Assembly (NCBI GenBank): GCA_017534115.1
Contig: JAFWDD010000009.1
Coordinates: 1 to 34,850, forward strand
Reading direction: 5' to 3'
From: Bacillota bacterium
GTDB taxonomy: Bacteria > Bacillota > Clostridia > Lachnospirales > Anaerotignaceae
DNA length: 34,850 nucleotides
Program-made: the position numbers and the translations under genes
In this document: piece after piece, positions 7,983-32,109 of the stretch
Layout of the letters: every line of letters starts with the position of its first letter
How positions within the stretch are numbered: the stretch's first letter is position 1
Notes under the pieces: model-generated
What the model was told of the DNA's origin: nothing
What the model saw: the letters and a program-made list of their open reading frames with translations, nothing else
Database searches by the model: none

Positions 7983-7985
7983 TTG

Positions 7986-8022
7986 CACCGTTACCAATGG
8001 TCTTATTTGGTACGGTGTTTTT
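7986..8022 (+). terminator. Terminator or attenuator directly upstream of the surface-protein gene
   Basis: CACCGT-T-ACCAA (7986-7997) pairs with TTGGTACGGTG (8007-8017): eleven pairs with one bulged T and a 9-base loop, followed by TTTTT, A, TTTT. It sits between the probable promoter at 7820 and the ribosome binding site (GAAGGAAAG, about 8044-8052) of the next gene. As a plain terminator it would leave that gene without a promoter, so attenuation or partial readthrough is the simplest reading. Confidence 0.75.
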
Positions 8023-8060
8023 ATTTTGTAAAAAATTTAAGAAAGAAGGAAAGAAATTTT

Positions 8061-10829
8061 ATGAAGAAAAAATTTTTGGCTGTGATTCTTTCCGCTGTGA
8101 TGTTTGCGGGAATAGTTCCAGTATCTGCCTATGCGGAAGAATCCACGTTACAGCAGGTCGTTCAACTTGCGGAAGACGTCTCAGCGGCGAACCAGCCTGA
8201 CGCACAGGTGTTGAATTCGGATGGCATACTGCTCCGGCAGGAGTCGAGCGCCGGTTCTGTAGGTACATTTTCTTTAAACAGCCTGTATACGAAGCTGCTG
8301 GACGGAATTATCAGCACAGCATCCAAAAAAATCGGAACGGCCGCTGCCGATTTTGGAATTGAACATTTCTTACTGCCGGTTGTGGACTATTTTATCGGGC
8401 TTCCCGAAGAAGAGCAGCCTGAGGATCCCAATGTCAAAGAGATCCTTCAGGATCTGGACAAGATCTCGGCACAGCTGGAACTCGTTTTAGCGAACCAGGA
8501 TAAGATGATGGACGACCTGAGCGATATATCGCATATGGTCGAATGCGAACAGCTCAATACTGTTCTTAATAACTTCCAGCAGCTGAAGAATGGCAAAGTT
8601 GCACCCCAAGTTATCTATGACTCGATAAAAAGAGAGGAGAATAACACGGCTCTTTCTGACGAAGATCGTAGTGATCTTATAAAGAGTATTCTATTGGGTG
8701 CTGTGGGTCTCGGTACGGATATTCAGGTATACAACCGCACTGACCTTGCATTTGACAACTATACCTATCAGCTCGGACAGGCCATCATCGGACCTTACCG
8801 CGTCACACTTAAAACCGATTCAACCGTCAAAAATGAGTCCGGTAACATCTTCTGGATCCTCTATGAATTGGAACGCAGAGAGGTCGACTGGGAATTTATG
8901 GCGGATGAAGAAAGGGCAACCTTCCATGCGGATCTTATGAGCCAGTATATGATCGCTGCGTTACTGGACATACAGTCTATGGACGCCAGAATCGCGGCAA
9001 TCGAAAAATATAATGCCAATCGTGATAAGGATAAAGATCCCCTTGTGAGCGACAGCCCCGTAAGGGAAATGCGGGATCAGCTTCTGAAACAGATGGAACA
9101 GGTCAGCAAGCTTGCTAAGCAGTGGGATGTCCAGCCCCATGATTACAGTTTCTTCTGGGTTCCCGGCCATGAGATCAAGATTATGTCCTATGTTAAGTGC
9201 GGCAGTTTCTATGAAAAGCATCAGGCAAATGACGCTGCCGGAATTGACAGTAATCTCGCTTTGGATGACCCGAATTCATACTTCAGCGAATATATGCAGT
9301 ATGATGATTCCCATCCGCTGATGGAAGGGCAAAAACTGGCTGATCTGTATAAATTTGCGTCAAAGTCCGGCAGGCTGAAATCTTACTATACAGGGGACCA
9401 TGCCGATCAGGGTTTTTGGAAGTGGCTTTGCGCAGAGGGCAATATCCAGATCGATCCTAAGGTGGATACCATGAGAGCGCTGTGTGCGCCGATCGGCCGG
9501 GATGCGTCCCAGACATACGGCATGCAGTATAGCTATGACTATAGTATGTATGAAAGACTTTACTACATTGCTTTCGCTCCCCATTGGTATGCGGCCCAGG
9601 ATGAAAAGTATTATGATCAATGGGCTACCGTGCTGAGTTACGGGGAACGAAGGCATGATTATTGGGGAATTTTAACTCCGAAATATGAGTATGATTCCAG
9701 CGAGCTTGACAAATTCAACTTTATGATCATCGGTGCCGTGGCAAACTATGGGGGAACAGAAACAGTCCTGACAGAAATCGAGATTTCATCAGATCCCGCA
9801 AAAACAACTTATAAACCGGGCGAAACCTTCGATCCGGCGGGAATGGTCGTAACAGCGAAATACAGTGACGGCACAGAGAGAGGAATTACCGATTTCACAG
9901 TAACTCCCGACGAACCTCTCACAAAACAGGATGCAATAGTTACAATAAGTTATACCGAAAATGGCAAGACAAAGACAGCGGAGATCCCTATAACTGTTAA
10001 AGAGTCTTCCGGAAAAGGGTCTTCCGGAGGCGGCGGACGTTCCGGCAAAGTAAGCTATACTCTTACATACGATACAAACGGCGGTTCGGAAATCAAGGCT
10101 GAAATCTGCAGCGTGGGCGACAATATAACCCTTGACAAAACACCGGAAAAAGAAGGATATACATTCACAGGCTGGTATGGGGACAAAGAACTCACACAGA
10201 AAATAACGAGCGTTGTTATGAACAGCTCAAAAACTGTTTACGCTGGCTGGGACAACGGCGAACAGCCCGTAATTCCCGATAATCCTGAAACACCCGATGA
10301 AAACGCTCCTTTAATGGTAATCAGAATCGACGACACAAAATATCAGCTGAACGGCAAAAATATGGAATTGGATTCCGCTCCTTTCATAGATGAAAACGAC
10401 AGAACTATGCTTCCCGTAAGGGTTGTTGCAAACGCTTTGGGAATTTCCGACGCTGACATTGTATGGGATGACAACACAAAGACAGCCTCTTTCACAAGAC
10501 CTGACGGAAAGGTTGTTTCCTGCACAGTCGGTTCAAATATCATCAAAATCGGAGATGAGGAAGTTGAAATCGACACAGCTCCTGTAATCAGAAATGACAG
10601 GATTTATCTTCCTATGAGAGCGCTCTTCAATGCATTCAATGTATCTGATGATCACATTGCATGGGACGGCGCAGCACGCAAAGTAACAGTTGCAAAAGAG
10701 GCTCTTGACGACATTAATGCTCTTACAGAGGTGGCACCCGTTGAAGAAGAACCTGTAGAAGAGGTTCTTGATGAGGAAACACCTGCAGCTGAGACTCCTG
10801 TTGAGAAAACACCCGCTGAAGAGGCATAA
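8061..10829 (+). CDS. Secreted modular surface protein (unknown N-domain, Ig-like, InlB-type repeat, copper amine oxidase N-like domain)
   Basis: A 922-residue exported protein. The start is the ATG at 8061, behind GAAGGAAAG; it gives a clear signal peptide (MKKKF, hydrophobic core, cleavage likely after AYA at residue 25). Residues 60-565 form a large domain I do not recognise, with a helical, heptad-like stretch near 125-175. Residues 570-650 look like a bacterial Ig-like (Big_3) domain, and 648-661 a Gly/Ser linker. Residues 664-730 match a Listeria–Bacteroides (InlB B-type) repeat ending in YAGW. Residues 754-885 are a copper amine oxidase N-terminal-like domain, a wall-associated module in Clostridia, not an enzyme. 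The tail is acidic and Pro/Glu-rich. There is no LPXTG or SLH motif. Codon use in the first two thirds differs from neighbours (more CGC/CGT and CTG). An adhesin or toxin-like role is possible but unproven. Confidence 0.88.
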   Translation: MKKKFLAVILSAVMFAGIVPVSAYAEESTLQQVVQLAEDVSAANQPDAQVLNSDGILLRQESSAGSVGTFSLNSLYTKLLDGIISTASKKIGTAAADFGIEHFLLPVVDYFIGLPEEEQPEDPNVKEILQDLDKISAQLELVLANQDKMMDDLSDISHMVECEQLNTVLNNFQQLKNGKVAPQVIYDSIKREENNTALSDEDRSDLIKSILLGAVGLGTDIQVYNRTDLAFDNYTYQLGQAIIGPYRVTLKTDSTVKNESGNIFWILYELERREVDWEFMADEERATFHADLMSQYMIAALLDIQSMDARIAAIEKYNANRDKDKDPLVSDSPVREMRDQLLKQMEQVSKLAKQWDVQPHDYSFFWVPGHEIKIMSYVKCGSFYEKHQANDAAGIDSNLALDDPNSYFSEYMQYDDSHPLMEGQKLADLYKFASKSGRLKSYYTGDHADQGFWKWLCAEGNIQIDPKVDTMRALCAPIGRDASQTYGMQYSYDYSMYERLYYIAFAPHWYAAQDEKYYDQWATVLSYGERRHDYWGILTPKYEYDSSELDKFNFMIIGAVANYGGTETVLTEIEISSDPAKTTYKPGETFDPAGMVVTAKYSDGTERGITDFTVTPDEPLTKQDAIVTISYTENGKTKTAEIPITVKESSGKGSSGGGGRSGKVSYTLTYDTNGGSEIKAEICSVGDNITLDKTPEKEGYTFTGWYGDKELTQKITSVVMNSSKTVYAGWDNGEQPVIPDNPETPDENAPLMVIRIDDTKYQLNGKNMELDSAPFIDENDRTMLPVRVVANALGISDADIVWDDNTKTASFTRPDGKVVSCTVGSNIIKIGDEEVEIDTAPVIRNDRIYLPMRALFNAFNVSDDHIAWDGAARKVTVAKEALDDINALTEVAPVEEEPVEEVLDEETPAAETPVEKTPAEEA

Positions 10830-14518: not shown

Positions 14519-16141
14519 ATGAGTGAAAACCAGAAACAACTTCCTGATAAAAGCGGGTTTATAAAGCAGGCGTCTATATTGACAGCCGCCAGCCTTTTAT
14601 CAAGATTTTTAGGATTTTTATACAGACTTCCGCTTACCAGACTAATAGGTGATGAGGGAAACTCAATTTACGCGGCCGGTTATAATATATACAATTTCCT
14701 TCTTATATTATCTTCCGCGGGAATCCCTGTAGCAGTGTCAAGGATGGTTTCGGAAAGGCTGGAGAAAAAAGAATATATAAACGCACATCAGGTTTTTAAA
14801 TCATCTCTTATATTTACGAGTACTTTAGGAACAATATTCATGGTAATACTTTTTGTATTTGCCGGACCCATATCGGAGCTGGTAAAGTCTCCGGAAAGCT
14901 TTTACTGTTTGAGGACTCTTGCTCCCACAGTGCTCATAGTTGCGATAATGTCCTGTTTCAGAGGATATTTTCAGGGTATGAATAAAATGATGCCTACGGC
15001 AATATCTCAGATTGTAGAGCAGATTTTCAACGCCATATTCAGTGTTGTGCTTGCATATGTATTTGTTAAGCAGAGCGTATCTCTGGGTGCGGCAGGAGGA
15101 ACAGCCGGAACAGGAATCGGCGCCGCTGCCGGTCTGGGAACAATGATATTCATATATAAGCTTGTGGAGAAGGATCTGGCTTATAGAAGAATGTACAAGA
15201 GCCGTGAAACATATGTTGAGACAAAAAGAGAGGTTCTCAAAAAGGTTATATGGACCGCATTCCCCATTATTGCCGGAACAGCGGTATTCAGCATAACAAA
15301 CTTAATTGATACGAAAATGGTTCTTTCTCTTCTGAATTCTTCAGGAGCATTCACATCTACTGAGGCGCATCAGCTTTACGGACAGCTTTCAGGCAAATAT
15401 GTTGTTTTATCAACACTGCCCGTATCGATTTCAACGGCAGTAGCCACTGCGGCAGTGCCTAATATAGCGGCTGCGATCGTAAAGGGAGAGAAACGATTAA
15501 TTGAAAAGAAAATAAATCTGGCATTGAAGATTTCCATGGTTGTATCCATACCTGCGGCAATCGGAATGGGAGTATTGAGCGATCAGATACTGAAACTGCT
15601 TTTCCCTACATATCCGGCAGGCGGAGCGCTTATCAAACTTGGTGCGGCTTCTATTATTTTCCTTGCATTGAGCCAGATAAACACTGGTATCCTTCAGGGT
15701 ATCGGCAAAGTTAAGCTTCCCGTAATAAGCGCCATTGTAGGAGCTCTTCTGAAAATAGCGTTCAATATGATTCTTATCGGAAGACCTTCCATAAATGTAA
15801 AAGGCGCCATAATTTCAACCACTATCTGCTACGCGGTAGCTTCCCTCATGAATCTCAGATATGTGGTAAGAGAGACCGGAGTAAAACCGGATATAAACGC
15901 CGGAGTTATAAAACCGGCAATAGCCTCAGGAATTATGGGAGTTATCTGCTGGGCATGCTATAAAGGCATATATGCTGCGGTAGGCAGGAACTCCATCAGC
16001 ACAATAGCCGCTATCCTCATAGCCATAGTAGTTTATGCCGTTCTTGTGGTTGTATTCAGGATTATGGATGAGGATGAAATTTTAACGTTACCTAAAGGAG
16101 CTAAAATAAACCGATTGCTAAAGAGAATGAGACTTATTTAA
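14519..16141 (+). CDS. SpoVB/MurJ-like polysaccharide flippase (MOP superfamily)
   Basis: A 540-residue, very hydrophobic protein with about 14 membrane segments. Its start (GFIKQASILTAASLLSRFLGFLYRLPLTRLIGDEGNSIY) is typical of the SpoVB/YtgP branch of the MOP superfamily, which moves undecaprenyl-linked precursors such as lipid II across the membrane. Members include Bacillus SpoVB (spore cortex) and YtgP (a MurJ-type flippase in growing cells), and sequence reading alone does not separate them. A second MOP transporter occurs in this window in the fusion at 23754, so two substrates may be served. GAAAGGGAAG precedes the ATG. It is followed by mutS2 after 18 bases. Confidence 0.9.
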   Translation: MSENQKQLPDKSGFIKQASILTAASLLSRFLGFLYRLPLTRLIGDEGNSIYAAGYNIYNFLLILSSAGIPVAVSRMVSERLEKKEYINAHQVFKSSLIFTSTLGTIFMVILFVFAGPISELVKSPESFYCLRTLAPTVLIVAIMSCFRGYFQGMNKMMPTAISQIVEQIFNAIFSVVLAYVFVKQSVSLGAAGGTAGTGIGAAAGLGTMIFIYKLVEKDLAYRRMYKSRETYVETKREVLKKVIWTAFPIIAGTAVFSITNLIDTKMVLSLLNSSGAFTSTEAHQLYGQLSGKYVVLSTLPVSISTAVATAAVPNIAAAIVKGEKRLIEKKINLALKISMVVSIPAAIGMGVLSDQILKLLFPTYPAGGALIKLGAASIIFLALSQINTGILQGIGKVKLPVISAIVGALLKIAFNMILIGRPSINVKGAIISTTICYAVASLMNLRYVVRETGVKPDINAGVIKPAIASGIMGVICWACYKGIYAAVGRNSISTIAAILIAIVVYAVLVVVFRIMDEDEILTLPKGAKINRLLKRMRLI

Positions 16142-16159: not shown

Positions 16160-17938
16160 ATGAATGAAAAAGCATTAAGAGTTCTGGAATTTAATAAAAT
16201 AAAAGATAAACTTTCCTCATACGCGGTATCGCCTATGGGGAAAGAACTTGCCCAAAAATTGGAGCCAATGAATTATCTTGAGGATGTAAGGTCTGCCCAG
16301 GAAGAAACAACCGCGGCGGCATCCATGATTTTGCGAAAGGGCAATCTGCCTTTAGGCGGGCTTACAGAGGTAAGACCTCAGCTTAAAAGAGTTTCCGTGG
16401 GAGGAGTTCTCAACTGCAAAGAGCTTATTACCATCGGCAACTTCCTTTATGTGTGCACAAAAGTTAAAAGCTACGGTAAAAAAGAGTCCAAAGATGATAA
16501 TTATTCTGTCATCGATGGGCTTTTTGAGCTTGTTCAACCCGTTCCGGAATTGGAAAGAGCAATTAATACCTGCATACTTTCCGATACTGAAATAGCTGAT
16601 GACGCAACTCCGAAATTGCGTGACATAAGACGTGAAATCAAGCGTTCCAACGATAAAATAAGGGACAGCCTGAACTCAGTAATCAATTCTCCAGCATACA
16701 AAAATATGCTTCAGGATAATGTAATCACCATAAGAAACGACAGATACTGCGTTCCCGTAAAGCTGGAATATAAAGGCTCATTTGCAGGTATGGTTCATGA
16801 CCAGTCGAATTCCGGCTCCACAGTCTTCATAGAGCCGGCTTCTGTAGTGGCTCTTAACAACAAAATACGTGAGCTTAAATCCGAAGAACAGGCAGAAATG
16901 GACAGAATACTTGCGTGGCTTTCGGATATGGCCGGAAATAATCTAAATACAATAAACGCGGATCTGGAGATTCTCACAAGACTGGATTTCATATTTGCGA
17001 AGGGCGAACTTTCTCTTTCCATGGAAGGAAGCAAGCCGGAATTCAATAAAAACGGAATAATCGATATAAGACGAGGCAGACATCCTCTCCTGAACAGAGA
17101 TGAGGTTGTTCCCATAGATATAAATTTAGGCGGAGATTTTTCCGCGCTTCTCATAACAGGGCCAAATACAGGTGGTAAAACCGTAGCTTTAAAAACATTG
17201 GGTCTTTTCTCGGTAATGGGACAGTCCGGACTTCATATACCTGCGGGAGATAATTCCCGTCTCAGTATGTTTTCGGAAGTTTTTGCGGACATAGGTGATG
17301 ACCAGAGCATAGAGCAGAGTCTTTCTACATTTTCGGCGCATATGAGCAATATTGTTACTATTCTGGACAGGGCTGATGAAAACTGTCTGGTGCTTCTGGA
17401 CGAGCTTGGAGCAGGCACCGACCCTACGGAAGGCGCGGCTCTTGCAATAGCAATAATATCTTACCTGATGGAAAGAAAGACAAAAATCGCCGTTACGACT
17501 CATTACAGCGAGTTGAAAGTATTCGCTCTTGAAACAGATGGCATTGAAAATGCAAGCTGTGAATTTGATATAGATACATTAAGGCCTACATACAAGCTTT
17601 TAATAGGCGTTCCCGGAAAGAGCAACGCTTTCGCAATATCAAAAAGACTTGGGCTTTCAGATAATATAATAGATAAGGCAAAAGAGGTCATAAACAAGGA
17701 AGCGGTCCGTTTTGAGGATGTGCTCACAGAGCTTGAAATGTACAGAAAAACTGTCGAGACGGAAAAGGAAAAAGCGGAAGAATACAGACAGCAGACAGAG
17801 GATCTGAAAAGAATCTGGAACGCCAGAAAGATATTACAAATAGACAGAAAGAAAGGATTCTGCGGGAAGCTAAGGAAGAAGCCCGTGAAATCATTAAATC
17901 CGCGAAAGAAGAGTCAGACCGACTTGTTAAAGAGATAA
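16160..17938 (+). CDS. mutS2: Endonuclease MutS2, N-terminal and ATPase part (frameshifted gene, 5' piece)
   Basis: MutS2 binds branched DNA and stalled or collided ribosomes in Firmicutes; it lacks the mismatch-recognition domains of MutS. This piece contains the clamp and core region and the ABC ATPase: Walker A (GPNTGGKT) at 334-341, the signature (SLSTFSAHM) near 392-400 and Walker B (VLLDELGAGTDP) near 411-422. From about residue 550 (base 17811) the frame turns into unrelated sequence (RIWNARKI...) and stops at 17938. The expected charged coiled coil continues in the neighbouring frame. Adding one A to the run at 17807-17810 restores a continuous protein of about 789 residues, the normal MutS2 size. 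Confidence 0.9.
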   Translation: MNEKALRVLEFNKIKDKLSSYAVSPMGKELAQKLEPMNYLEDVRSAQEETTAAASMILRKGNLPLGGLTEVRPQLKRVSVGGVLNCKELITIGNFLYVCTKVKSYGKKESKDDNYSVIDGLFELVQPVPELERAINTCILSDTEIADDATPKLRDIRREIKRSNDKIRDSLNSVINSPAYKNMLQDNVITIRNDRYCVPVKLEYKGSFAGMVHDQSNSGSTVFIEPASVVALNNKIRELKSEEQAEMDRILAWLSDMAGNNLNTINADLEILTRLDFIFAKGELSLSMEGSKPEFNKNGIIDIRRGRHPLLNRDEVVPIDINLGGDFSALLITGPNTGGKTVALKTLGLFSVMGQSGLHIPAGDNSRLSMFSEVFADIGDDQSIEQSLSTFSAHMSNIVTILDRADENCLVLLDELGAGTDPTEGAALAIAIISYLMERKTKIAVTTHYSELKVFALETDGIENASCEFDIDTLRPTYKLLIGVPGKSNAFAISKRLGLSDNIIDKAKEVINKEAVRFEDVLTELEMYRKTVETEKEKAEEYRQQTEDLKRIWNARKILQIDRKKGFCGKLRKKPVKSLNPRKKSQTDLLKR

Positions 17939-18528
17939 ACAAAGAAGCCCGTCAGAAAGGAAATCGCGAAAGATTGAACGCCGCGAGAAGCGAGCTTAAG
18001 GGAAGGCTTGAGGAAGCAAATTCTCAGGTTGCCAGACCTGTATTTACAGGCAGCAAGGAACCTTTAACAGACGCTAAAGCCGGAGACAGAGTTTATATAA
18101 CCTCATTCGGGCAAAGCGGTGTCGTTATGTCTCCGCCCGATTCTTCAGGAGATGTGTTTGTACAGACCGGAATGATGAAAATGAAAGTACCTCTCAGAGA
18201 TTTGGTAAAGGATGTTGAGCGTAAGGAAAAGGACGACAATGCCGGAAGAGTTGTTACTAAAGTAAAATCCGGCAAAGCACAGAAAATTTCAACTGAAATT
18301 GACTGCAGAGGCCAGCTTGTGGACGAAGGAATCGGAAACATAGACAAATATCTGGATGACGCATATCTTGCTGGACTTAAGAAGGTTACCATAATTCACG
18401 GAAAAGGCACGGGAGCCTTAAGAAGCGCGGTACAGCAGTATCTTAGGACAAATCCTCATGTAAAGAGCTTCCGCTACGGAATGTACGGCGAAGGTGAAAC
18501 TGGTGTAACCATAGTAGAATTGAAATGA
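17812..18528 (+). CDS. mutS2: Endonuclease MutS2, coiled coil and Smr domain (frameshifted gene, 3' piece)
   Basis: This frame continues MutS2: NLERQKDITNRQKERILREA, then the rest of the coiled coil, a KOW-like region (GDRVYITSFGQSGVV), and a C-terminal Smr domain. In the Smr domain the usual DLRG is DCRG (near 18300) and the HGKGTG motif is intact (near 18400). Smr domains cut RNA or branched DNA. The first usual start codon in this frame is a TTG at 17974, but it has no ribosome binding site and coding clearly runs from upstream, so it is the second half of the preceding gene. The response regulator gene starts 9 bases after the stop. Confidence 0.88.
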   Translation, partial: NLERQKDITNRQKERILREAKEEAREIIKSAKEESDRLVKEINKEARQKGNRERLNAARSELKGRLEEANSQVARPVFTGSKEPLTDAKAGDRVYITSFGQSGVVMSPPDSSGDVFVQTGMMKMKVPLRDLVKDVERKEKDDNAGRVVTKVKSGKAQKISTEIDCRGQLVDEGIGNIDKYLDDAYLAGLKKVTIIHGKGTGALRSAVQQYLRTNPHVKSFRYGMYGEGETGVTIVELK

Positions 18529-23229: not shown

Positions 23230-23733
23230 ATGAATAAAGGCAAAAAAGCGATTATCGGAATAGTAATAGCCGGCTTGGTTATCGGTGGAGCTGTTTATTC
23301 CATGGCGGCTGCGGGAGATCCCGGATCAGAAGCGGATCCTCTTGTTACAAAAAGCTATGTGGACAGCAAAATCAGCGAGATGTCAGGCGGTTCTGCAAAT
23401 GTAAATGTGGATGAAATAGTATCCAGGGTTTTGGCCCAGGTAAATACTCAGGTTGGCGGAACCACTGAATCCTATACTCCTTTGAACATAAAGGAAGGAA
23501 ACATAATGATTGCCTCTGAAGGAACAGAGATAATATTAAGAAGCGGAATTGCTACTGTCTATGTTCCCGGTGAAAACGGAATTTCAGACGTAACAAGCGG
23601 AAAAGATTTATACAACGGAGAAAATATCGGACAGAACCACCTTCTTATTGTGCCTCGTTCCGACGGCAGAGGCCTTGTTGCCTCAACGGAATGCTGGGTT
23701 CTTATAAAAGGCGGATATAGATTCATGAACTAA
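23230..23733 (+). CDS. Exported or membrane-anchored protein of unknown function
   Basis: A 167-residue protein with a single N-terminal hydrophobic segment (about 6-27), then an exported portion. The segment DPLVTKSYVDSKI (about 37-49) is followed by a short amphipathic helix region and a compact C-terminal core with SEGTEIILRSG, ISDVTSGKDLYNGENI and NHLLIVPRSDGRGL. From memory this arrangement recurs in small Clostridia wall-associated proteins of unknown function; I cannot name the family. AAGGAG at 23214-23219 supports the start. It sits behind a probable promoter and 20 bases before the MurJ–Wzy fusion, so it looks like the first gene of the polymer operon. Confidence 0.85.
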   Translation: MNKGKKAIIGIVIAGLVIGGAVYSMAAAGDPGSEADPLVTKSYVDSKISEMSGGSANVNVDEIVSRVLAQVNTQVGGTTESYTPLNIKEGNIMIASEGTEIILRSGIATVYVPGENGISDVTSGKDLYNGENIGQNHLLIVPRSDGRGLVASTECWVLIKGGYRFMN

Positions 23734-23753: not shown

Positions 23754-26700
23754 ATGGATTCTAAAGAAATTAATGATTCTAAAGAAATAAATAATGATGA
23801 GATTGCCTCTGAGGAAATAAACACAGAAGAGATCCGGACAAGGGAACCTGACAGCGAAGAATTAAAGGAAAACGTTTCTGACTCAACAGGCGTAAAAACT
23901 GTAAAAACTGTCAGCAACATAATGATAATAACTCTTATCGGCAAGATTTTCGGCCTTCTGCGCGACCAGTTTTTTGCGTGGAACTATGCTACGGGCAAGG
24001 AAGCTTCCGCATTCTTTTCCGCAAGCAGAATTCCAAGAGTATTTTTTGACGCGGTCTTTGCTTCGGCCATAACCTCGTGTTTTATACCTGTTTTCAATGA
24101 ATATCTTGAGAAAAAGGGTAAAAAAGAGGCCTTTGAGCTTGCCAGCAATTTCCTTAACATAGTAGGAATAATTACTATAATACTTACCCTTGTAGGAATT
24201 GTATTTGCGGTACCCATTACGAACTTCATTGCCGATGGATTTGATCCTGAGACTGCGGCTTTATGTGCTTCTCTTCTCAGGGTAATGTTCCCCATAATGA
24301 TAATGACTGCTGTTGCGTTCATATTTGTGGGAATACTGCAGTCCATGGAAAAATTTGCCATACCTGCGGCAATAAGTATTTTTTCCAATCTGGTAATAAT
24401 CTTCTACTATATATTCTTTAACGAAAAATATGGAATATACGGCCTTGCTGTAACATTCCTCATTGCCTGGGGAGTTCAGGCGGCTGTTCAGATACCTTCT
24501 CTTGTGAGAGGCGGATTCAGATATAAATTTATACTGAATTTCAAGGATGAAGGCATCAGGAAAATATTTGTGCTCATGCTTCCCGTAATGGTCGGAACAT
24601 GGATACAGCCCATAAACCTTCTTATAAATACGAAATTTGCCTCTCATCTTTACGAGGGCAGAGGAGTTTCGGCAATGGACTATGCCAACACTCTTTACAC
24701 AATTATTGTGGGAGTTATAGTTCTTGCTGTGGCAAACGTAGTTTTTCCCCGTCTTTCCAAGCTTGCTACAAACGGACAGACTAAAGAATTCAAAATGAAT
24801 GTAAGGAAAACACTGGCTACGCTGATGTTTTTCCTCATACCTCTTTCAGTAGGATTAATGTGTCAGTCCACACCTATTGTAAAGCTTCTTTATCAGTGGA
24901 AGGCATTTGACGCGTTCTCGACCCAGATTACATCCAATGTGCTTACATTCTTTGCGCTGGGTATGGTTGGCTATGCTTTTTATACTATTGTATCAAGAGC
25001 GTTTTATGCATATCAGGACGGAAAAACCCCGTTAATAAGCGGAGTTGTGTCTATTGCAATAAATATTGTTTTATGTCTGACCCTTGTGAACAGATTTGAG
25101 TTCACTGGACTTGCTCTCGCGTCTGTAATAAGCCAGAGCGTAGCGGGAATCGTTCTTACCATATCCTTCAGAAGGAAAATGGGAAGGCTGTTCCCGAAAA
25201 ATTATATATTCAATGTTGTGAAAATGATAGTATGCGCCATAATAATGGGATTTATTGTGCTGGCGGCAAGAAATTACCTTACAGCCCGTGCGGGCGACGG
25301 ACTTATATCCAGAGCCGGAATAGTTCTTATCCCGACAATTATCGGAGTTATTATATACTGCATACTTACTTATATAACCAAAGTTCCCGAAGCCCGAAAA
25401 GCCTTTAATATGATCAAATCCAGACTCGGCGGTACGGGTTCAGGAACTGCAGTAACGGAAGAAGATGCTTCTGCGGAAGCTGTTTTATCCGGGAAAGAAC
25501 CTGTTATGAAAAAAGAAAGAATAAATTATTGGGAGCAAAGCATAATCGGAGGCGCCCTGTCAGATGCATGGAGATGGTTCAAAAACCTTTACTTCGAGTC
25601 CAATCTGTACAGAGTATATCTCATTGTTGCCGCGTTTTTATGGCGGATGATAGACGGAAGCTTTATTATAGGGCTTTTCAGATATAACTGGCTGGCTGTT
25701 GCCGCAGACGGCTCTCTTATCAGCACAGCCGGATACGGTCTTTGGAATTATCCCGCGACAAAATTTAAACGTTCGCAGAACAGAGTTGCCGGAGAAATAA
25801 AGGACAGTATTGTACTTAAGTTTTTTGGTGAGAAATTCATTCTGTTTTTCATCGGACTTATGATATTCGGACTTCCCGTATTGCCTACTATGGCTCTGGC
25901 GGGTCTTGCGGCTGTAATATTTGTCCTCTTCATTATTAATTTGCTCATTGGCAGAATAAAACCGAGAAAATTTGATATATTCGACTGGACTGTACTTCTT
26001 TTCGGCATATGTTACGCAATATCCGGAGCTTTTTCATATAATAAAGCCCAGGGAGTTCAGACTTCGGTGCTGTTTTTGGCGTTTCTGAGTATGTTCTTCG
26101 TTTTGAGGAATATGCTGAATACAGAAAAAAGGCTGAACGTGATGTTGAAGGTATTCCTGTTTTCTGCGCTTTTGGTAGGGCTTTACGGACTCTATCAGTA
26201 CATGACGGGAAATGTTGTAATGAATGAAGCGTGGGTTGATGAGGAATCCTTCGAGAACCTTACGGTCAGAGTATATTCCACATTCTCAAACCCCAATGTT
26301 TTCGGCGAATATCTTGTTGTTGCCATTTCAGTCTGCGTAGGAATGCTCTGGAAGGCAAAAGGAGCCTTCAGAAAAATATACTATGTAATTGTAGCGGCAG
26401 TATTGGTTGGGGCTTTGGCGTGTACAAGCTCAAGAGGAGCTATGCTTGGGCTTATGATAGCCCTTTGTATGTTCGTAATATTCTCAGAGAAAAGACTTCT
26501 TATCCTCATACTATTGGGAGCCATCGCAATGCCTTTTGTATTGCCGGCTTCGGTATGGGAAAGGCTTTCAAGCGCACTTGCGTTTACGGATACATCGTCT
26601 CTTTACAGGATATCCATATATAAAGCAAGTATAAACATTATAAAAGAATACTGGGTAACAGGAATCGGCGTAGGAGCATTTCCTTTGATTTATCCGGAAT

Positions 26701-27044
26701 TTTCCTTCAATGCCGCCAACGCCTACCATTCTCATAACCTGTTTTTGAACGTGTTTATAGAAATGGGTATTCTTGGATTTATACTTTTGATTTTAACCGC
26801 TGTTTTGTTTATGCAGAATCTATATTACGGCATAAAGAAAGGCGTAAGGAAGTACGGATTCCTTTTAGGAGGTATTCTGGGAGGATTTATAGGACTTACA
26901 TTACAGGGAATGACTGACTATATATGGCATGATTACAGCATTGTGCTTCTTTTCTGGATAATTCTTGGAATAGGAGCGGCTGCCGTAAGGACAGGAGTTA
27001 GATTGAATGAGAAAAAAGCTGAAAGTAATTCACATAATAACTGA
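23754..27044 (+). CDS. MurJ-type flippase fused to a Wzy/O-antigen ligase-type polymerase
   Basis: A 1096-residue membrane protein made of two exporters' worth of domains. Residues 1-45 are an acidic tail with short repeats. Residues 46-560 are a MurJ/MviN MOP-family flippase with about 14 membrane segments (KIFGLLRDQFFAW, SASRIPRVFFDAVFASA, ILQSMEKFAIPA). By eye, Escherichia coli MurJ R24 and R52 correspond to W and F here; Firmicute MurJ homologues vary at these sites. Residues about 563-600 are a linker. Residues about 620-1090 carry a Wzy_C/O-antigen ligase domain of about 12 segments, with TFSNPNVFGEYL, SSRGAMLG and the VTGIGVGAFP...AYHSHNLFLNVFIEMGILG signature. The frame is continuous with no sign of a repaired junction. 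The inferred job is to flip and polymerise one undecaprenyl-linked repeat. It overlaps the next gene by 38 bases. Confidence 0.9.
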   Translation: MDSKEINDSKEINNDEIASEEINTEEIRTREPDSEELKENVSDSTGVKTVKTVSNIMIITLIGKIFGLLRDQFFAWNYATGKEASAFFSASRIPRVFFDAVFASAITSCFIPVFNEYLEKKGKKEAFELASNFLNIVGIITIILTLVGIVFAVPITNFIADGFDPETAALCASLLRVMFPIMIMTAVAFIFVGILQSMEKFAIPAAISIFSNLVIIFYYIFFNEKYGIYGLAVTFLIAWGVQAAVQIPSLVRGGFRYKFILNFKDEGIRKIFVLMLPVMVGTWIQPINLLINTKFASHLYEGRGVSAMDYANTLYTIIVGVIVLAVANVVFPRLSKLATNGQTKEFKMNVRKTLATLMFFLIPLSVGLMCQSTPIVKLLYQWKAFDAFSTQITSNVLTFFALGMVGYAFYTIVSRAFYAYQDGKTPLISGVVSIAINIVLCLTLVNRFEFTGLALASVISQSVAGIVLTISFRRKMGRLFPKNYIFNVVKMIVCAIIMGFIVLAARNYLTARAGDGLISRAGIVLIPTIIGVIIYCILTYITKVPEARKAFNMIKSRLGGTGSGTAVTEEDASAEAVLSGKEPVMKKERINYWEQSIIGGALSDAWRWFKNLYFESNLYRVYLIVAAFLWRMIDGSFIIGLFRYNWLAVAADGSLISTAGYGLWNYPATKFKRSQNRVAGEIKDSIVLKFFGEKFILFFIGLMIFGLPVLPTMALAGLAAVIFVLFIINLLIGRIKPRKFDIFDWTVLLFGICYAISGAFSYNKAQGVQTSVLFLAFLSMFFVLRNMLNTEKRLNVMLKVFLFSALLVGLYGLYQYMTGNVVMNEAWVDEESFENLTVRVYSTFSNPNVFGEYLVVAISVCVGMLWKAKGAFRKIYYVIVAAVLVGALACTSSRGAMLGLMIALCMFVIFSEKRLLILILLGAIAMPFVLPASVWERLSSALAFTDTSSLYRISIYKASINIIKEYWVTGIGVGAFPLIYPEFSFNAANAYHSHNLFLNVFIEMGILGFILLILTAVLFMQNLYYGIKKGVRKYGFLLGGILGGFIGLTLQGMTDYIWHDYSIVLLFWIILGIGAAAVRTGVRLNEKKAESNSHNN

Positions 27045-28134
27045 TAAAAATATAGGCGGAGCGGGAAGATGGCTTTTGAATTTTCTTTCATATTATGACA
27101 GAGATAAACTTGACGTAAAGGTCATCCTGCCGGAGGACAGTCTTCTGGCTCCCGAGGTTGACCGGCTTGGAACAGAAAGGATTTCCATAAAGGATTTGAA
27201 GGAATCTTCCTATGACAAGGAATCAGTCAAAAAGTTCAAAGAAGTATTTTTGAAGGAGAATCCCGATGTGGTTCATACCCATGCGTCTCTGGCCGCCAGA
27301 ATGGGAGCAAAGGAAGCAAAAGTTCCTGTTATTGTAAATACAAAGCACTGCATGGAGGACCTTTCCATAGGATTTATCAAGAAACAGGCAAGAAAATCCA
27401 TGTATAAAAAATATACGGATATGATAATTGCAGTTTCTGAGGCTGTTAAGGATTCATTGATTGAAGGAGGATGTCCGCCCGGTTTAGTACGAATGATATA
27501 TAACGGAGTAAAGCCTCTTGAAACGCGTTCTGTGGAAGAAGTTAAAGAGTTCAGGGAAAGCCTTGGATTTTCGGAAACCGATTTTATTGCAGGAATGGCC
27601 GCAAGGCTGGAAGAAATAAAAGATTATGACACATTTATAAATGCAGCGAAAGAAGTAAAATCAAGGGGAGCCGATATAAAATTCGTCATTATGGGCACTG
27701 GCTCGGAGGAAGAAAGACTGAAGGCTCTTGCAAATGAGAAAAACCTTTCGGACACACTGAAATTTGCCGGATTTGTCTCAGATATGGAGCTTGCGATGAA
27801 TGCCATGGATGTGAATGTTCTTACATCCAAATCCGAAGCAATATCCCTTTCCATAGTGGAAGGAATGACTTTGGGACTCCCTGCAGTGGGAACAAAGGCC
27901 GGAGGTATACCGGAAGCTATTGAAGACAAGGTTACGGGAGAGCTTTTTGATGTAGGCGACAGTAAAGCTCTTGCGGATAAACTGATATTTTTACGGGAAA
28001 ATCCGGAAATTCGAAAGAAATATTCGGAAAATGCAAAAGAAATATCTCTGGAGAAATTTTCTCCCGGGAAAATGTGTAGAGAAATAGAAGATCTTTATAT
28101 TGAGCTTTATTTGAAAAAGGGAAAGGAATTTTAG
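27007..28134 (+). CDS. GT4-family glycosyltransferase
   Basis: A 375-residue GT-B-fold glycosyltransferase. The N-terminal acceptor domain begins HIITDKNIGGAGRWLLNFL, the usual GG.. loop of family 4, with VHTHASLAARMG after it. The C-terminal donor domain has MAARLEEIKDYDTFINAA and the nucleotide-sugar E-x7-E type motif SKSEAISLSIVEGMTLGLPAVGTKAGGIPE. No membrane segments, so it should work at the cytoplasmic face on a lipid-linked acceptor. CAGGAGTT precedes the ATG, which lies inside the end of the MurJ–Wzy gene; such an overlap suggests translational coupling. Sugar donor and linkage cannot be read. Confidence 0.92.
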   Translation: MRKKLKVIHIITDKNIGGAGRWLLNFLSYYDRDKLDVKVILPEDSLLAPEVDRLGTERISIKDLKESSYDKESVKKFKEVFLKENPDVVHTHASLAARMGAKEAKVPVIVNTKHCMEDLSIGFIKKQARKSMYKKYTDMIIAVSEAVKDSLIEGGCPPGLVRMIYNGVKPLETRSVEEVKEFRESLGFSETDFIAGMAARLEEIKDYDTFINAAKEVKSRGADIKFVIMGTGSEEERLKALANEKNLSDTLKFAGFVSDMELAMNAMDVNVLTSKSEAISLSIVEGMTLGLPAVGTKAGGIPEAIEDKVTGELFDVGDSKALADKLIFLRENPEIRKKYSENAKEISLEKFSPGKMCREIEDLYIELYLKKGKEF

Positions 28135-28135
28135 T

Positions 28136-28609
28136 ATGAGTAAACCTGTTAAAAGAAAATTCAATATAGTCGACATTATAATTATAGTTATAATAATTTG
28201 CGTTATAGTTGCCGGCGGAAAAGTATTCAGGAAGTTTTCATCCGGTTCCAAGGGCGGAAACGAAACAGTTTATTTTGAGTTCATGGGAACCAAAGTAAGG
28301 TATGAAGGAGCGAACAAGGTTAAGCCCGGAGATAAGGTTTACAACAGTACAAATTCCACTTATCTCGGAGTGGTTGACCATGTGGAGGTAACACCTTACT
28401 ATGAACCCGTTTTTGATCCTACGGAAGGCATATATGAAGAGGTTGAACTTCCCAACAAGTGCAATGTTGACATATTTGTTGAAAGCAATGGTTATGTAAC
28501 GGATTCGGGAGTATTCCCCGAAGGTCAGGAATTAAAGGTCGGACAGGAGTTTTTCCTCAAGGGAAAAGGTTATGCCTTTGAAGGATATATAGTTGGCGTT
28601 GACGAGTAA
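28136..28609 (+). CDS. DUF4330-family membrane-anchored protein, copy 1
   Basis: A 157-residue protein with one N-terminal membrane segment (about 10-28, an unbroken run of I and V) and an exported domain that matches what I know of DUF4330: VRYEGANKVKPGDKVYNS, LGVVDHVEV, then a VDIFVESNGYVTDSGVF strand-rich part. DUF4330 proteins are common in Clostridia wall-polymer clusters; their function is unknown. It starts one base after the GT4 stop, and its ribosome binding site (AAAGGAA) is within that gene. The next gene is a related protein. Confidence 0.82.
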   Translation: MSKPVKRKFNIVDIIIIVIIICVIVAGGKVFRKFSSGSKGGNETVYFEFMGTKVRYEGANKVKPGDKVYNSTNSTYLGVVDHVEVTPYYEPVFDPTEGIYEEVELPNKCNVDIFVESNGYVTDSGVFPEGQELKVGQEFFLKGKGYAFEGYIVGVDE

Positions 28610-28623
28610 AAGAGGTGACTGAT

Positions 28624-29106
28624 TTGAAAAAATTCAAGAAATTAAACGGACTTGATATATTTATTATAGTAATAATTGTAATCGCTGTTATTTTCGGAGC
28701 GTATAAAGCGGTTAACATAAACAGAAACAAAGGCACCGGAAGCGAAGCCAGCTATATTGATGTTGAGTATGACGCATGTGTTGAGCGTGTAAGGATGAAA
28801 ACCGTAGACGCTGTAAATGTTGGGGATTTGCTCTACGATGATACAACGGGAGTCTGCATAGGCGAAATAATAAACAAGGAGTGTTATCCTTATATGGAGC
28901 CTGAAATATCCGAAAACGGAGAAGCTGTTCTTGCTCAGGAGCCTAACTATTATGTTTTGAAAATCACTGTAAAATCCCAGGTTATAGATAAGGAAGACGG
29001 ATATTATCTCAATGGCGTAGTTGAATTTAAATCAAATTCAAAAATGGAAACCTATACAAAATACGCGCAGCCCATTTTTACAATGCTGGATATGAGATTT
29101 GTATAA
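28624..29106 (+). CDS. DUF4330-like membrane-anchored protein, copy 2
   Basis: A 160-residue protein with the same build as its neighbour: a membrane helix (about 9-27) then an exported domain with VRMKTVDAVNVGDLLYDD, CIGEIINKECYPYMEP and a C-terminal strand region. The identity to copy 1 is low but the plan is the same, so this looks like an old tandem duplication. The start is TTG at 28624, 5 bases after GAGGTGA; an in-frame GTG at 28615 lies inside that site. It belongs to the operon between the GT4 gene and the GT4–CsaB fusion. Confidence 0.78.
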   Translation: MKKFKKLNGLDIFIIVIIVIAVIFGAYKAVNINRNKGTGSEASYIDVEYDACVERVRMKTVDAVNVGDLLYDDTTGVCIGEIINKECYPYMEPEISENGEAVLAQEPNYYVLKITVKSQVIDKEDGYYLNGVVEFKSNSKMETYTKYAQPIFTMLDMRFV

Positions 29107-29144
29107 TAGATTTTACATGAATAAACGCTAAAAGGATGATATTT

Positions 29145-31376
29145 ATGAAATATAAGATTCTTATGACCCTTATGGGACTGAATATAGGCGGAGCGGAGAC
29201 CCATGTGGTGGAGCTCAGCAAAGAACTTCATAAAAAAGGCTATGAGATAATTGTTGCCTCCAACGGCGGCGTGTATGAGAAAGAGCTTATGGAAGCCGGT
29301 ATAAAGCATTACAATGTGCCTATGAATAAGCGCAACATTTTTAAAATGAAAAAATCATACAAGCTTCTGAAGGATATTATAGAAAAGGAAAATGTTGATA
29401 TTGTTCACAGCCACGCAAGAATTCCCAGCTTTATATGCGGAAAGCTTCACAAAAAAATGGGATTCCCTTTTGTGACATCTGCCCACTGGGTTTTCTATAC
29501 GGGAATGGGTCTTAAGTACCTTACGGACTGGGGACAAAAGGTAATTGCCGTAAGCGACGATATAAAGCAATATCTTATGGACAATTACAAAATACCGGAA
29601 AGAGATATTTTTGTAACCATAAACGGTATCGATACGGATAAGTTTTCTCCGGAAACGGACGGTAGCAAAATTGCAGATGAATTGTCTCTGAAAGATGACG
29701 AATTAAAGCTGGTATATGTCAGCCGTATGGACGAGTCCAGAGCGTTGGTTGCGAGACAGCTTATAGAGATAACTCCGGATTTGGTAAAGGAAATTCCCAA
29801 TATAAAGCTGATAATCGTAGGCGGCGGAGACGTTTTTGATGATCTTTTGAAAAAATCTCAGGAAGTAAACAAAAAGCTCGGCAGAGATGTAATCGTTATG
29901 ACTGGCGGAAGAACGGATATAAACGAACTGGTATCAGTTGCGGATATATTTGTAGGCGTAAGCCGTGCTGCACTAGAGGCCATGGCAGCCGCGAAACCTG
30001 TAATTATTGCAGGAAACGAAGGATATATCGGTATTTTCGGAAAAGACAGTCTGGATGTGGCTATGAAAACCAACTTCTGCTGCAGAGGCTGTGAGGAGTC
30101 CTCGGAAAGGCTTCTGCTTAGAGATGTAGTTTATCTTCTGAAGGGTATTTCAGACGAAGACAGAAAGCATCTTGGGGATTACGGCAGACAGGTCATATTC
30201 GATAATTATTCCGTAAGCAAAATGGCGGATATATGCATAGAAGCTTATGACGCCGTTATAAGATACAATCAGATGCCAAAGGCTAATATTCTCATGTCCG
30301 GATATTACGGATTCAACAACACAGGCGATGAAGCCATAATGCTGGCCATGCACAAGAATATATCCGAACTCAGCGAGAGAATAAACATAATGGTATTGTC
30401 AAGAAATCCTGCTGAAACTCATGCTAAATACGGCATAAACGCAACAAAAAGATTTAATTTCTTCGGTGTTGCTTCGGCAATATCCAAATGTGACATTCTT
30501 TTGAGCGGAGGCGGAAGCCTTCTTCAGGACAGGACAAGCACACGATCACTTCTGTACTATCTTTCGATAATCTGGCTTGCCAAGTTCAGGGGTAAAAAGG
30601 TTATGCTTTACGCCAATGGAATTGGTCCCGTAATCAAAAAGGCAAACCAGAAAAGAGTTAAAAATATGGTAAATAAAGCGGATGTAGTTACATTAAGAGA
30701 AGAAAATTCTCTTCAGGAGCTTCAGGCAATGGGATTCAGAGGCAAGGAAGTACATGTAACTGCCGACCCTGTATTTACACTTGAAGGAATACCGAAGGAA
30801 AAAGCTTTGGAAATCATGAAAGAATCCGGCATTCCGACTGATAAGCCTATAATCGGTGTTTCCGTGAGAAAATGGTATAATGTAGACAATTTCGCGGAAG
30901 GAATAGCTGCTCTCTGTGATGAAATATATGAAAAATTAGACAGAAATATTGTTTTTATCGTAATGCAGAATCCCAACGACAGAATCATAAGCGAAAGCAT
31001 AAGGAAAAAAATGAGGGAGCCTTCCTATATTCTTAAAGGAAACTGCAGTCCCTATGAGCTTATGGGTATAATCGGCACTATGGAGGCAATTCTGAGTATG
31101 AGGCTTCATACCCTTATATTTGCCGCGAAGCAGAGAGTACCGTCTCTCGGATTTGTTTACGACCCGAAAATCGACTATTATCTTGAAAAGCTTTCAATGC
31201 CCAGCGGAGGCCAGATATCCGATTTTGACAAAGAGCTGTGCTTTGAAAAGGTAAAGGATATTGTGGCGGAAAGAGATAAATATGTGGAGGTTCTGGATAA
31301 GGCAACTACCAGCCTTGAGGAAATGGCTCCGATGAATGATGTTTATTTAATGAAATTGCTTAATGAAAGAAAGTGA
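29145..31376 (+). CDS. GT4 glycosyltransferase fused to CsaB-type polysaccharide pyruvyl transferase
   Basis: A 743-residue two-domain protein. Residues 1-375 are a GT4 glycosyltransferase (GLNIGGAETHVVELSKEL, HSHARIPSF, SRMDESRALVARQL, then SRAALEAMAAAKPVI in the donor domain). From about residue 380 (ILMSGYYGFNNTGDEAIM) to about 725 is a polysaccharide pyruvyl transferase of the CsaB type, with the conserved LLSGGGSLLQDRTSTRSLLYY and AILSMRLHTLIFAAKQRVPSLGFVYDPK. CsaB adds a pyruvate ketal to a wall polysaccharide that SLH domains bind in Bacillus. In most genomes the two activities are separate genes. I chose the ATG at 29145, 9 bases after AAAGG; the ATG at 29136 overlaps that site. The fusion would ensure that sugar transfer and pyruvylation act together. 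Confidence 0.9.
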   Translation: MKYKILMTLMGLNIGGAETHVVELSKELHKKGYEIIVASNGGVYEKELMEAGIKHYNVPMNKRNIFKMKKSYKLLKDIIEKENVDIVHSHARIPSFICGKLHKKMGFPFVTSAHWVFYTGMGLKYLTDWGQKVIAVSDDIKQYLMDNYKIPERDIFVTINGIDTDKFSPETDGSKIADELSLKDDELKLVYVSRMDESRALVARQLIEITPDLVKEIPNIKLIIVGGGDVFDDLLKKSQEVNKKLGRDVIVMTGGRTDINELVSVADIFVGVSRAALEAMAAAKPVIIAGNEGYIGIFGKDSLDVAMKTNFCCRGCEESSERLLLRDVVYLLKGISDEDRKHLGDYGRQVIFDNYSVSKMADICIEAYDAVIRYNQMPKANILMSGYYGFNNTGDEAIMLAMHKNISELSERINIMVLSRNPAETHAKYGINATKRFNFFGVASAISKCDILLSGGGSLLQDRTSTRSLLYYLSIIWLAKFRGKKVMLYANGIGPVIKKANQKRVKNMVNKADVVTLREENSLQELQAMGFRGKEVHVTADPVFTLEGIPKEKALEIMKESGIPTDKPIIGVSVRKWYNVDNFAEGIAALCDEIYEKLDRNIVFIVMQNPNDRIISESIRKKMREPSYILKGNCSPYELMGIIGTMEAILSMRLHTLIFAAKQRVPSLGFVYDPKIDYYLEKLSMPSGGQISDFDKELCFEKVKDIVAERDKYVEVLDKATTSLEEMAPMNDVYLMKLLNERK

Positions 31377-31380
31377 TTAG

Positions 31381-32109
31381 ATGGGAAAAAAGTATAGAAT
31401 ATTAGGCGTTCCTTTCGATGTTCTTACCATGACCGAAGCTGTATTGAAGGTCATGGAAATGATGAAAGGAGACAAACAGAGAATAATCTGCACTCCCAAC
31501 CCCGAAATAGTAGTTGAAGCCCAGAGCGACAAAGAGCTTATGGGAATTCTCAATCAGGCGGACATGGTTGTTATGGACGGCACGGGAATTACATGGGCAT
31601 ATAAAAAGCTCACAGGAGAAAAAGCGCCTAGAATTGCGGGATATGACCTTGTGCAGGAGGTTTTCTCAGCAATGAGCAAAACTGACTATACAGCGTATTT
31701 CTTCGGCGGAAAGCCCGGAGTTGCAAAAAAAGCGGCAATAAATATGCGTAAAAAATATCCTGGACTTAAAATAGTAGGATTCCATGACGGATATTTTACA
31801 TCCGCGGAGGAAATGAAGCTTATTTTAGAGCTCAAAAGACTGTCTCCGGATTTTCTTCTGGTAGGATTGGGTGCACCCAAACAGGAAAAGTGGATATACA
31901 ACAACATCAGACTTACAGGCGCTAAAATCGGCATCGGTGTAGGTGGATGCTTTGACGTTATGTCAGGCGAGGTAAAGAGAGCTCCCGAGACTATGCAGAA
32001 GATGAAATTAGAGTGGTTTTACAGACTTATAAAACAGCCCACGAGAGCCGGACGTATGATGAGACTGCCTAAATTTGTTTCCATGGTAAACAAGTCAAAA
32101 CGGAAATAA
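31381..32109 (+). CDS. TagA/WecG/CpsF-type (GT26) glycosyltransferase
   Basis: A 242-residue transferase of the GT26 family, which includes TagA (adds N-acetylmannosamine to undecaprenyl-PP-GlcNAc in teichoic acid linkage) and WecG. T38 (CTPNPEIV) and D66 (MDGTGITWA) match the TagA residues reported as important. AYFFGGKPGVAKKAA, LLVGLGAPKQEKWI and VGGCFDVMSGEVKRAP are family signatures, and the C-terminal basic tail (EWFYRLIKQPTRAGRMMRLPKF) suits membrane association. The ATG at 31381 is 4 bases after the fusion gene. Product and acceptor are inferred by family: it likely makes the first lipid-linked disaccharide for the polymer in this operon. Confidence 0.92.
   Translation: MGKKYRILGVPFDVLTMTEAVLKVMEMMKGDKQRIICTPNPEIVVEAQSDKELMGILNQADMVVMDGTGITWAYKKLTGEKAPRIAGYDLVQEVFSAMSKTDYTAYFFGGKPGVAKKAAINMRKKYPGLKIVGFHDGYFTSAEEMKLILELKRLSPDFLLVGLGAPKQEKWIYNNIRLTGAKIGIGVGGCFDVMSGEVKRAPETMQKMKLEWFYRLIKQPTRAGRMMRLPKFVSMVNKSKRK

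Follow-up and report, generated by a model that had tools for sequence, protein, structure and literature searches.

A natural single-chain fusion of a MurJ-family flippase and a Wzy/O-antigen ligase-type protein in Anaerotignaceae, encoded in an operon that points to a pyruvylated secondary cell wall polymer

A MurJ-family flippase domain and a Wzy/O-antigen ligase-type half are encoded as one protein of 1096 amino acids in a member of the Anaerotignaceae (Bacillota bacterium, GenBank assembly GCA_017534115.1, contig JAFWDD010000009.1, positions 1 to 34,850; this whole stretch of 34,850 nucleotides is referred to as the window). The same fusion is found in independent isolates and metagenome-assembled genomes of the family, and its gene lies in an operon with genes of the CsaB and TagA families. 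It is likely that the protein acts in a Wzx/Wzy-type pathway, in which a lipid-linked pyruvylated repeat would be flipped by the MurJ half and then polymerised by the covalently joined Wzy half. The kind of pathway and, by profile and fold, the families of its parts are known; the novelty lies in the union of the two halves in one chain. A literature search covering open papers returned no description of a MurJ-Wzy fusion, in agreement with the original prediction, which had been made from the DNA alone and did not know this architecture as a described system. The fusion and its parts are located in the window as follows:

23754..27044, + strand: MurJ-Wzy fusion, 1096 aa, a single open frame from the ATG at 23754 to the stop at 27044
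23895..25427, + strand: MurJ-family flippase domain, residues 48-558, 14 transmembrane segments (TIGR01695; Foldseek 7waw)
25434..25538, + strand: disordered linker, residues 561-595, pLDDT <50, includes Met585
25539..27041, + strand: Wzy/O-antigen ligase-type half, residues 596-1096, with the fold core at residues 690-1085 (25821-27008)
26391-26792, + strand: Wzy_C match within the second half, residues 880-1013
26727..26780, + strand: H992/H994 region, HSHN...G..G, invariant over 51 Wzy rows

The frame is uninterrupted over all of the 1096 codons originally reported. Its first half, which had been described as a MOP-family flippase at about residues 46-560, belongs to the MurJ family and exceeds the curated cut-offs of both models, with 303.7 bits for Pfam MurJ (PF03023; cut-off 27.4; residues 83-509) and 364 bits for TIGR01695 (cut-off 235.55; residues 50-551). 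The second half was likewise found to be Wzy_C-like by profile search, matching Pfam Wzy_C (PF04932) with 72 bits above a cut-off of 31.7; the type of this domain was thus predicted correctly, while the extent given for it, about residues 620-1090, was slightly wide compared to the WaaL-like fold at about 690-1085. Hydropathy analysis of the protein gives 14 plus 12 hydrophobic segments. Residues 596-689 form an additional N-terminal stretch ahead of the WaaL-like core that is also present in separately encoded Wzy proteins. H992, H994, R839, R894, R937 and R952, candidate catalytic residues, are invariant in the 51 Wzy rows, and the HSHN...G..G region may be a counterpart of the WaaL-type motif, which it resembles. 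The fusion is the sole Wzy_C protein in its own genome (G000) and in three relatives (G006, G029 and G035). TIGR01695 matches above the cut-off number at most one per family genome, the fusion being the one in its own genome.

The AlphaFold model of the whole fusion has a mean pLDDT of 86, with values below 50 only at residues 1-43 and 561-595, and a pTM of 0.57, and it contains no confident interface between the domains. In Foldseek, this model matches solved MurJ structures with a TMt of up to 0.90 (7waw), WaaL being found lower in the list. As separate Wzy rows were misaligned over their first ~80 residues in the alignment used for the full-length model, the Wzy half was also folded alone, which gave a pLDDT of 90 and a pTM of 0.90. 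This model aligns with WaaL with a Z-score of 28.9 over 369 residues and with FtsW/RodA with a Z-score of about 13. The modelled Wzy half has the GT-C type fold found in polymerases and ligases, and this fold cannot discriminate between the two. Solved structures matching the Wzy half were recovered by fold comparison alone, a search with its sequence profile having given none.

The fusion was found in about 25 of 57 family genomes (a count that includes G447 with caution, as this copy has stops within the frame), distributed over four of 17 genera (g1, g7, g11 and g17); among the 35 family members examined first it was present in eight. Carriers include Anaerotignum lactatifermentans and A. 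neopropionicum as well as two species with closed genomes, Chakrabartyella piscis (CP092441) and Anaerotignum sp. MB30-C6 (CP133078), in which the fusion was confirmed to be intact by checking the open reading frames. Among 108 loci, 20 are fused, 81 have separate genes on one strand, and seven lack Wzy in the stretch fetched. The remaining family members and Oscillospiraceae encode MurJ and Wzy separately, on the same strand and mostly a few bases apart, often with overlapping stop and start. In 299 genomes across the phylum, no further match spanning both halves was found, the window aside. A wider occurrence of fusions in Clostridia, suggested by the lengths of open frames, was rejected upon reading the open reading frames, most of which proved to be two genes that share a frame but are separated by a stop. 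The genome that contains the window comprises 1.86 Mb in 91 contigs, and the window holds a frameshifted mutS2, so that small errors are possible. That the fusion is an error of assembly or sequencing in a metagenome-assembled genome is nevertheless refuted, with practically no probability left to it, by closed isolate genomes and more than 20 independent assemblies that carry the same fusion. The frame at 25400-25600, where a mis-join had been considered, is genuine.

The fusion gene is followed by genes in a conserved order:

27007..28134, + strand: GT4 glycosyltransferase, its start overlapping the end of the fusion gene by 38 bases; conserved as the next gene in family loci reaching that far
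28136..28609, + strand: DUF4330 protein a (profile match; operon conservation)
28615..29106, + strand: DUF4330 protein b (profile match; operon conservation)
29136..31376, + strand: GT4::CsaB fusion of a glycosyltransferase and a polysaccharide pyruvyl transferase (PS_pyruv_trans, 165 bits)
31381..32109, + strand: WecG/TagA/CpsF glycosyltransferase (204 bits; place conserved)

The order MurJ-Wzy-GT4-DUF4330-DUF4330-GT4::CsaB-WecG is conserved across the family, DUF4330 usually occurring twice. The genome with the window encodes 49 SLH matches and two LCP proteins (LytR_cpsA_psr matches), and in the fused relatives G006, G010, G029 and G035 the LCP genes are located 5-8 kb from the fusion. The gene content of the operon indicates a secondary cell wall polymer that is pyruvylated and bound by SLH proteins, in line with the role in a wall polymer, not named further, that had been suggested for the fusion. 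Nearly every family locus that extends far enough likewise encodes GT4 and CsaB as one protein. For the DUF4330 pair between the GT4 and CsaB genes, a Wzz-like role in chain length would be a guess. The gene directly before the fusion, at 23230-23733 of the window, encodes a protein of 167 aa that has a hydrophobic stretch at its N-terminus and matches no Pfam family; weak relatives of this protein (36-45%) are found near the same operon in other genomes.

Several known systems resemble parts of this arrangement. In Paenibacillus alvei it was shown that TagA and CsaB act on a lipid-linked repeat (PMC6030368), building the pyruvylated repeat of the SLH-bound secondary cell wall polymer (PMC6030368, PMC6801904). 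The export route of the P. alvei polymer was reported to be unknown, while for Bacillus anthracis a Wzx/Wzy model exists (PMC6801904). The window shares with the pathway of these species the TagA and CsaB families and the SLH protein clients (PMC6030368, PMC6801904); however, no fused flippase-polymerase is described for it in the literature covered. The PS-II locus of Clostridioides difficile encodes mviN/murJ1 (CD2781), the polymerase CD2777 and the LCP proteins LcpA and LcpB (PMC5065235, PMC12548448). Knock-down of mviN lowers PS-II (PMC5065235), and it was proposed that MurJ1 serves PS-II and MurJ2 serves lipid II (PMC12548448). This system is alike in that a MurJ-class flippase is proposed to export the repeat of a secondary wall polymer and in having a polymerase and LCP anchoring, but its flippase and polymerase genes are separate and its polymer anchors CWB2 rather than SLH proteins (PMC4973711). 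In the Wzx/Wzy pathways for O-antigen, ECA and capsule, an undecaprenyl diphosphate-linked repeat is also flipped and then polymerised, by a MOP flippase and a GT-C polymerase; in contrast to these, the fusion has a MurJ-class flippase with 14 transmembrane segments that shares one chain with the polymerase. The first half agrees in family and fold with MurJ of E. coli and of Thermosipho africanus, as given by the TIGR01695 match and the TMt values above; the fusion differs in lacking R52 and R270, in having a lysine in place of R18 and in its additional C-terminal Wzy half. That a synthase and a flippase can share one membrane protein is known from MprF (PMC11980842), which is built from unrelated families and has an aminoacyl phospholipid as substrate.

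In the pathway that we propose, the cytoplasmic WecG/TagA, GT4 and GT4::CsaB enzymes of the operon would assemble the pyruvylated repeat on its undecaprenyl diphosphate carrier, after which the MurJ half would move it to the outer face of the membrane and the Wzy half with its WaaL/RodA fold would link the repeats into a chain. The LCP proteins would then attach the polymer to peptidoglycan, and SLH-domain proteins would bind the peptidoglycan-attached polymer. Loss of the stop between the adjacent genes would result in flippase and polymerase being made 1:1 and tethered to each other. While the fusion itself, the folds, the gene order, the distribution and the altered cavity arginines are direct results of the analysis, we infer which substrate is handled, what each half does and any hand-over between them. 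Speaking against the proposed pathway, some relatives (G042, G046 and G049) have SLH repeats and no TIGR01695 MurJ, so that such polymers can use another flippase. A more far-reaching form is a single-polypeptide Wzx-Wzy with substrate channelling, in which the flipped repeat would leave the MurJ cavity and directly enter the active site of the Wzy half, and in which a MurJ-class flippase would have been retuned from lipid II to a pyruvylated repeat; it is put forward tentatively and is rather less likely to hold than not.

The comparison of fused and separate genes indicates that the two genes were neighbours first and became fused when the stop of murJ was lost. Fused proteins retain the N-terminal stretch of the separate Wzy proteins including its Met, and Met585 in the linker aligns with the ancestral Wzy start. 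In many Anaerotignum copies, an in-frame Met is accompanied by a Shine-Dalgarno-like stretch ahead of the Wzy half, so that some free Wzy could be made in addition; in the window, the corresponding stretch before Met585 is weak. In the Wzy tree, the window groups with Anaerotignum, and the separate-gene relative G014 adjoins the window, while in the MurJ tree the window is placed apart from Anaerotignum, an AU test not rejecting a single clade (p-AU 0.142). A single gain followed by a later split and two independent gains appear indistinguishable from these trees. An own and apparently recent MurJ-Wzy fusion of 1015 aa is found in Oscillospiraceae bacterium isolate B83 (locus L106, 3070-6117), in which the Wzy Shine-Dalgarno sequence and start persist within the frame.

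One alternative is that the fusion is a near-neutral read-through, with halves that work independently and with part of the Wzy half made free from the internal start. In favour of this, the fusion is a simple stop loss that retained the ancestral Wzy start Met, Shine-Dalgarno-like sequences precede this Met in many Anaerotignum copies and clearly in L106, and the linker is disordered. It is considered unlikely, although it has the best standing among the alternatives, as the fusion was kept over several deeply diverged genera, whose MurJ halves are 48-52% identical to that of the window, and as the window itself has only the weak stretch ahead of Met585. The same features bear on the physical coupling of the two steps that had been proposed for the fusion: the original reading as a true MurJ/Wzy_C fusion for a wall polymer, which is probably not the peptidoglycan flippase, is upheld, but functional coupling was not substantiated, given the disordered linker, the lack of a confident domain interface and the in-frame Met in relatives. 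A different reading of the second half is that it acts as a WaaL- or PglL-like ligase, moving a finished chain or a single repeat to an acceptor. WaaL is the nearest solved fold, and the matching Pfam model carries the name O-antigen ligase; however, as few Wzy structures are available for comparison, the closeness to WaaL says little. With the fusion as the sole Wzy_C protein in its own genome and in three of the relatives checked, the pathway under a ligase reading would lack a polymerase of the Wzy_C class, and the genome encodes LCP proteins, the class by which Gram-positives attach polymers of this kind. For these two reasons polymerase activity is preferred, and we regard a ligase as improbable.

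Similarly improbable is that the MurJ half is the lipid II flippase of the cell, either alone or shared with the wall polymer, the Wzy half being merely its operon-mate. In favour of this, the MurJ half is the sole TIGR01695 MurJ above the cut-off in each family genome that has it, it has the fold of a lipid II flippase, and Amj, searched as a candidate lipid II flippase, was not found in the family. The window, however, contains a second MOP flippase:

14519..16141, + strand: separate SpoVB/YtgP-type MOP flippase (TIGR02900, 276 bits, below the cut-off of 372)

YtgP-type orthologues (33-57% identity) are present in all 36 relatives tested, including some without TIGR01695 MurJ and without Amj, and lipid II is likely flipped by the protein encoded at 14519. 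Of the cavity arginines, in E. coli numbering, R24 is kept (R70 of the fusion), and R18, R52 and R270 are replaced by K64, F98 and T313, respectively. R18, R24, R52 and R270 of E. coli MurJ were reported as essential (PMC4790310), as were R18, R24 and R270 in a further study (PMC9973255), whereas R52 was dispensable in Burkholderia cenocepacia MurJ (PMC4790310). The changes of R18 to K and of R52 to F are not discriminating, since nearly all clostridial rows sampled have them. The R270 change is particular to the clade: T or N is found at this position throughout the family, mostly N or T in Oscillospiraceae, and mostly K or R in distant members of the class. Together with the location of the gene in the CsaB/TagA operon and the corresponding assignment of MurJ1, encoded in the PS-II locus, and MurJ2 in C. 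difficile (PMC12548448), the R270 change and the 14519-type protein in MurJ- and Amj-less relatives suggest that the fusion is probably not the peptidoglycan flippase, as had been surmised.

The annotation "MurJ, lipid II flippase" is thus probably functionally wrong for such genes. The fusion lends genomic support to a Wzx/Wzy-type export of pyruvylated SLH-binding polymers in which the flippase is of the MurJ class, and a natural single-chain pair bears on how Wzx flippases and Wzy polymerases meet. The fusion occurs in one branch of gut-type anaerobic bacteria, and culturable Anaerotignum would offer a possible target of fixed stoichiometry for structural and functional studies.

Further observations concern the window and a related locus. 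The frameshifted mutS2 lies at 16160-18528 of the window, with MutS domain V in the open reading frame 16160-17938 and the MSSS and Smr domains in another frame (17974-18528); the break is either real decay or an assembly error. At 7983-10829, a 948-aa surface-type protein with a Listeria-Bacteroides repeat, Big_3 and copper amine oxidase N-terminal domains and no SLH match is encoded. In another family of the order (genome G053, locus L069, 282-4208), a protein of 1308 aa carries MurJ, GT4 and CsaB in one frame, which is a different fusion of parts from the same pathway.
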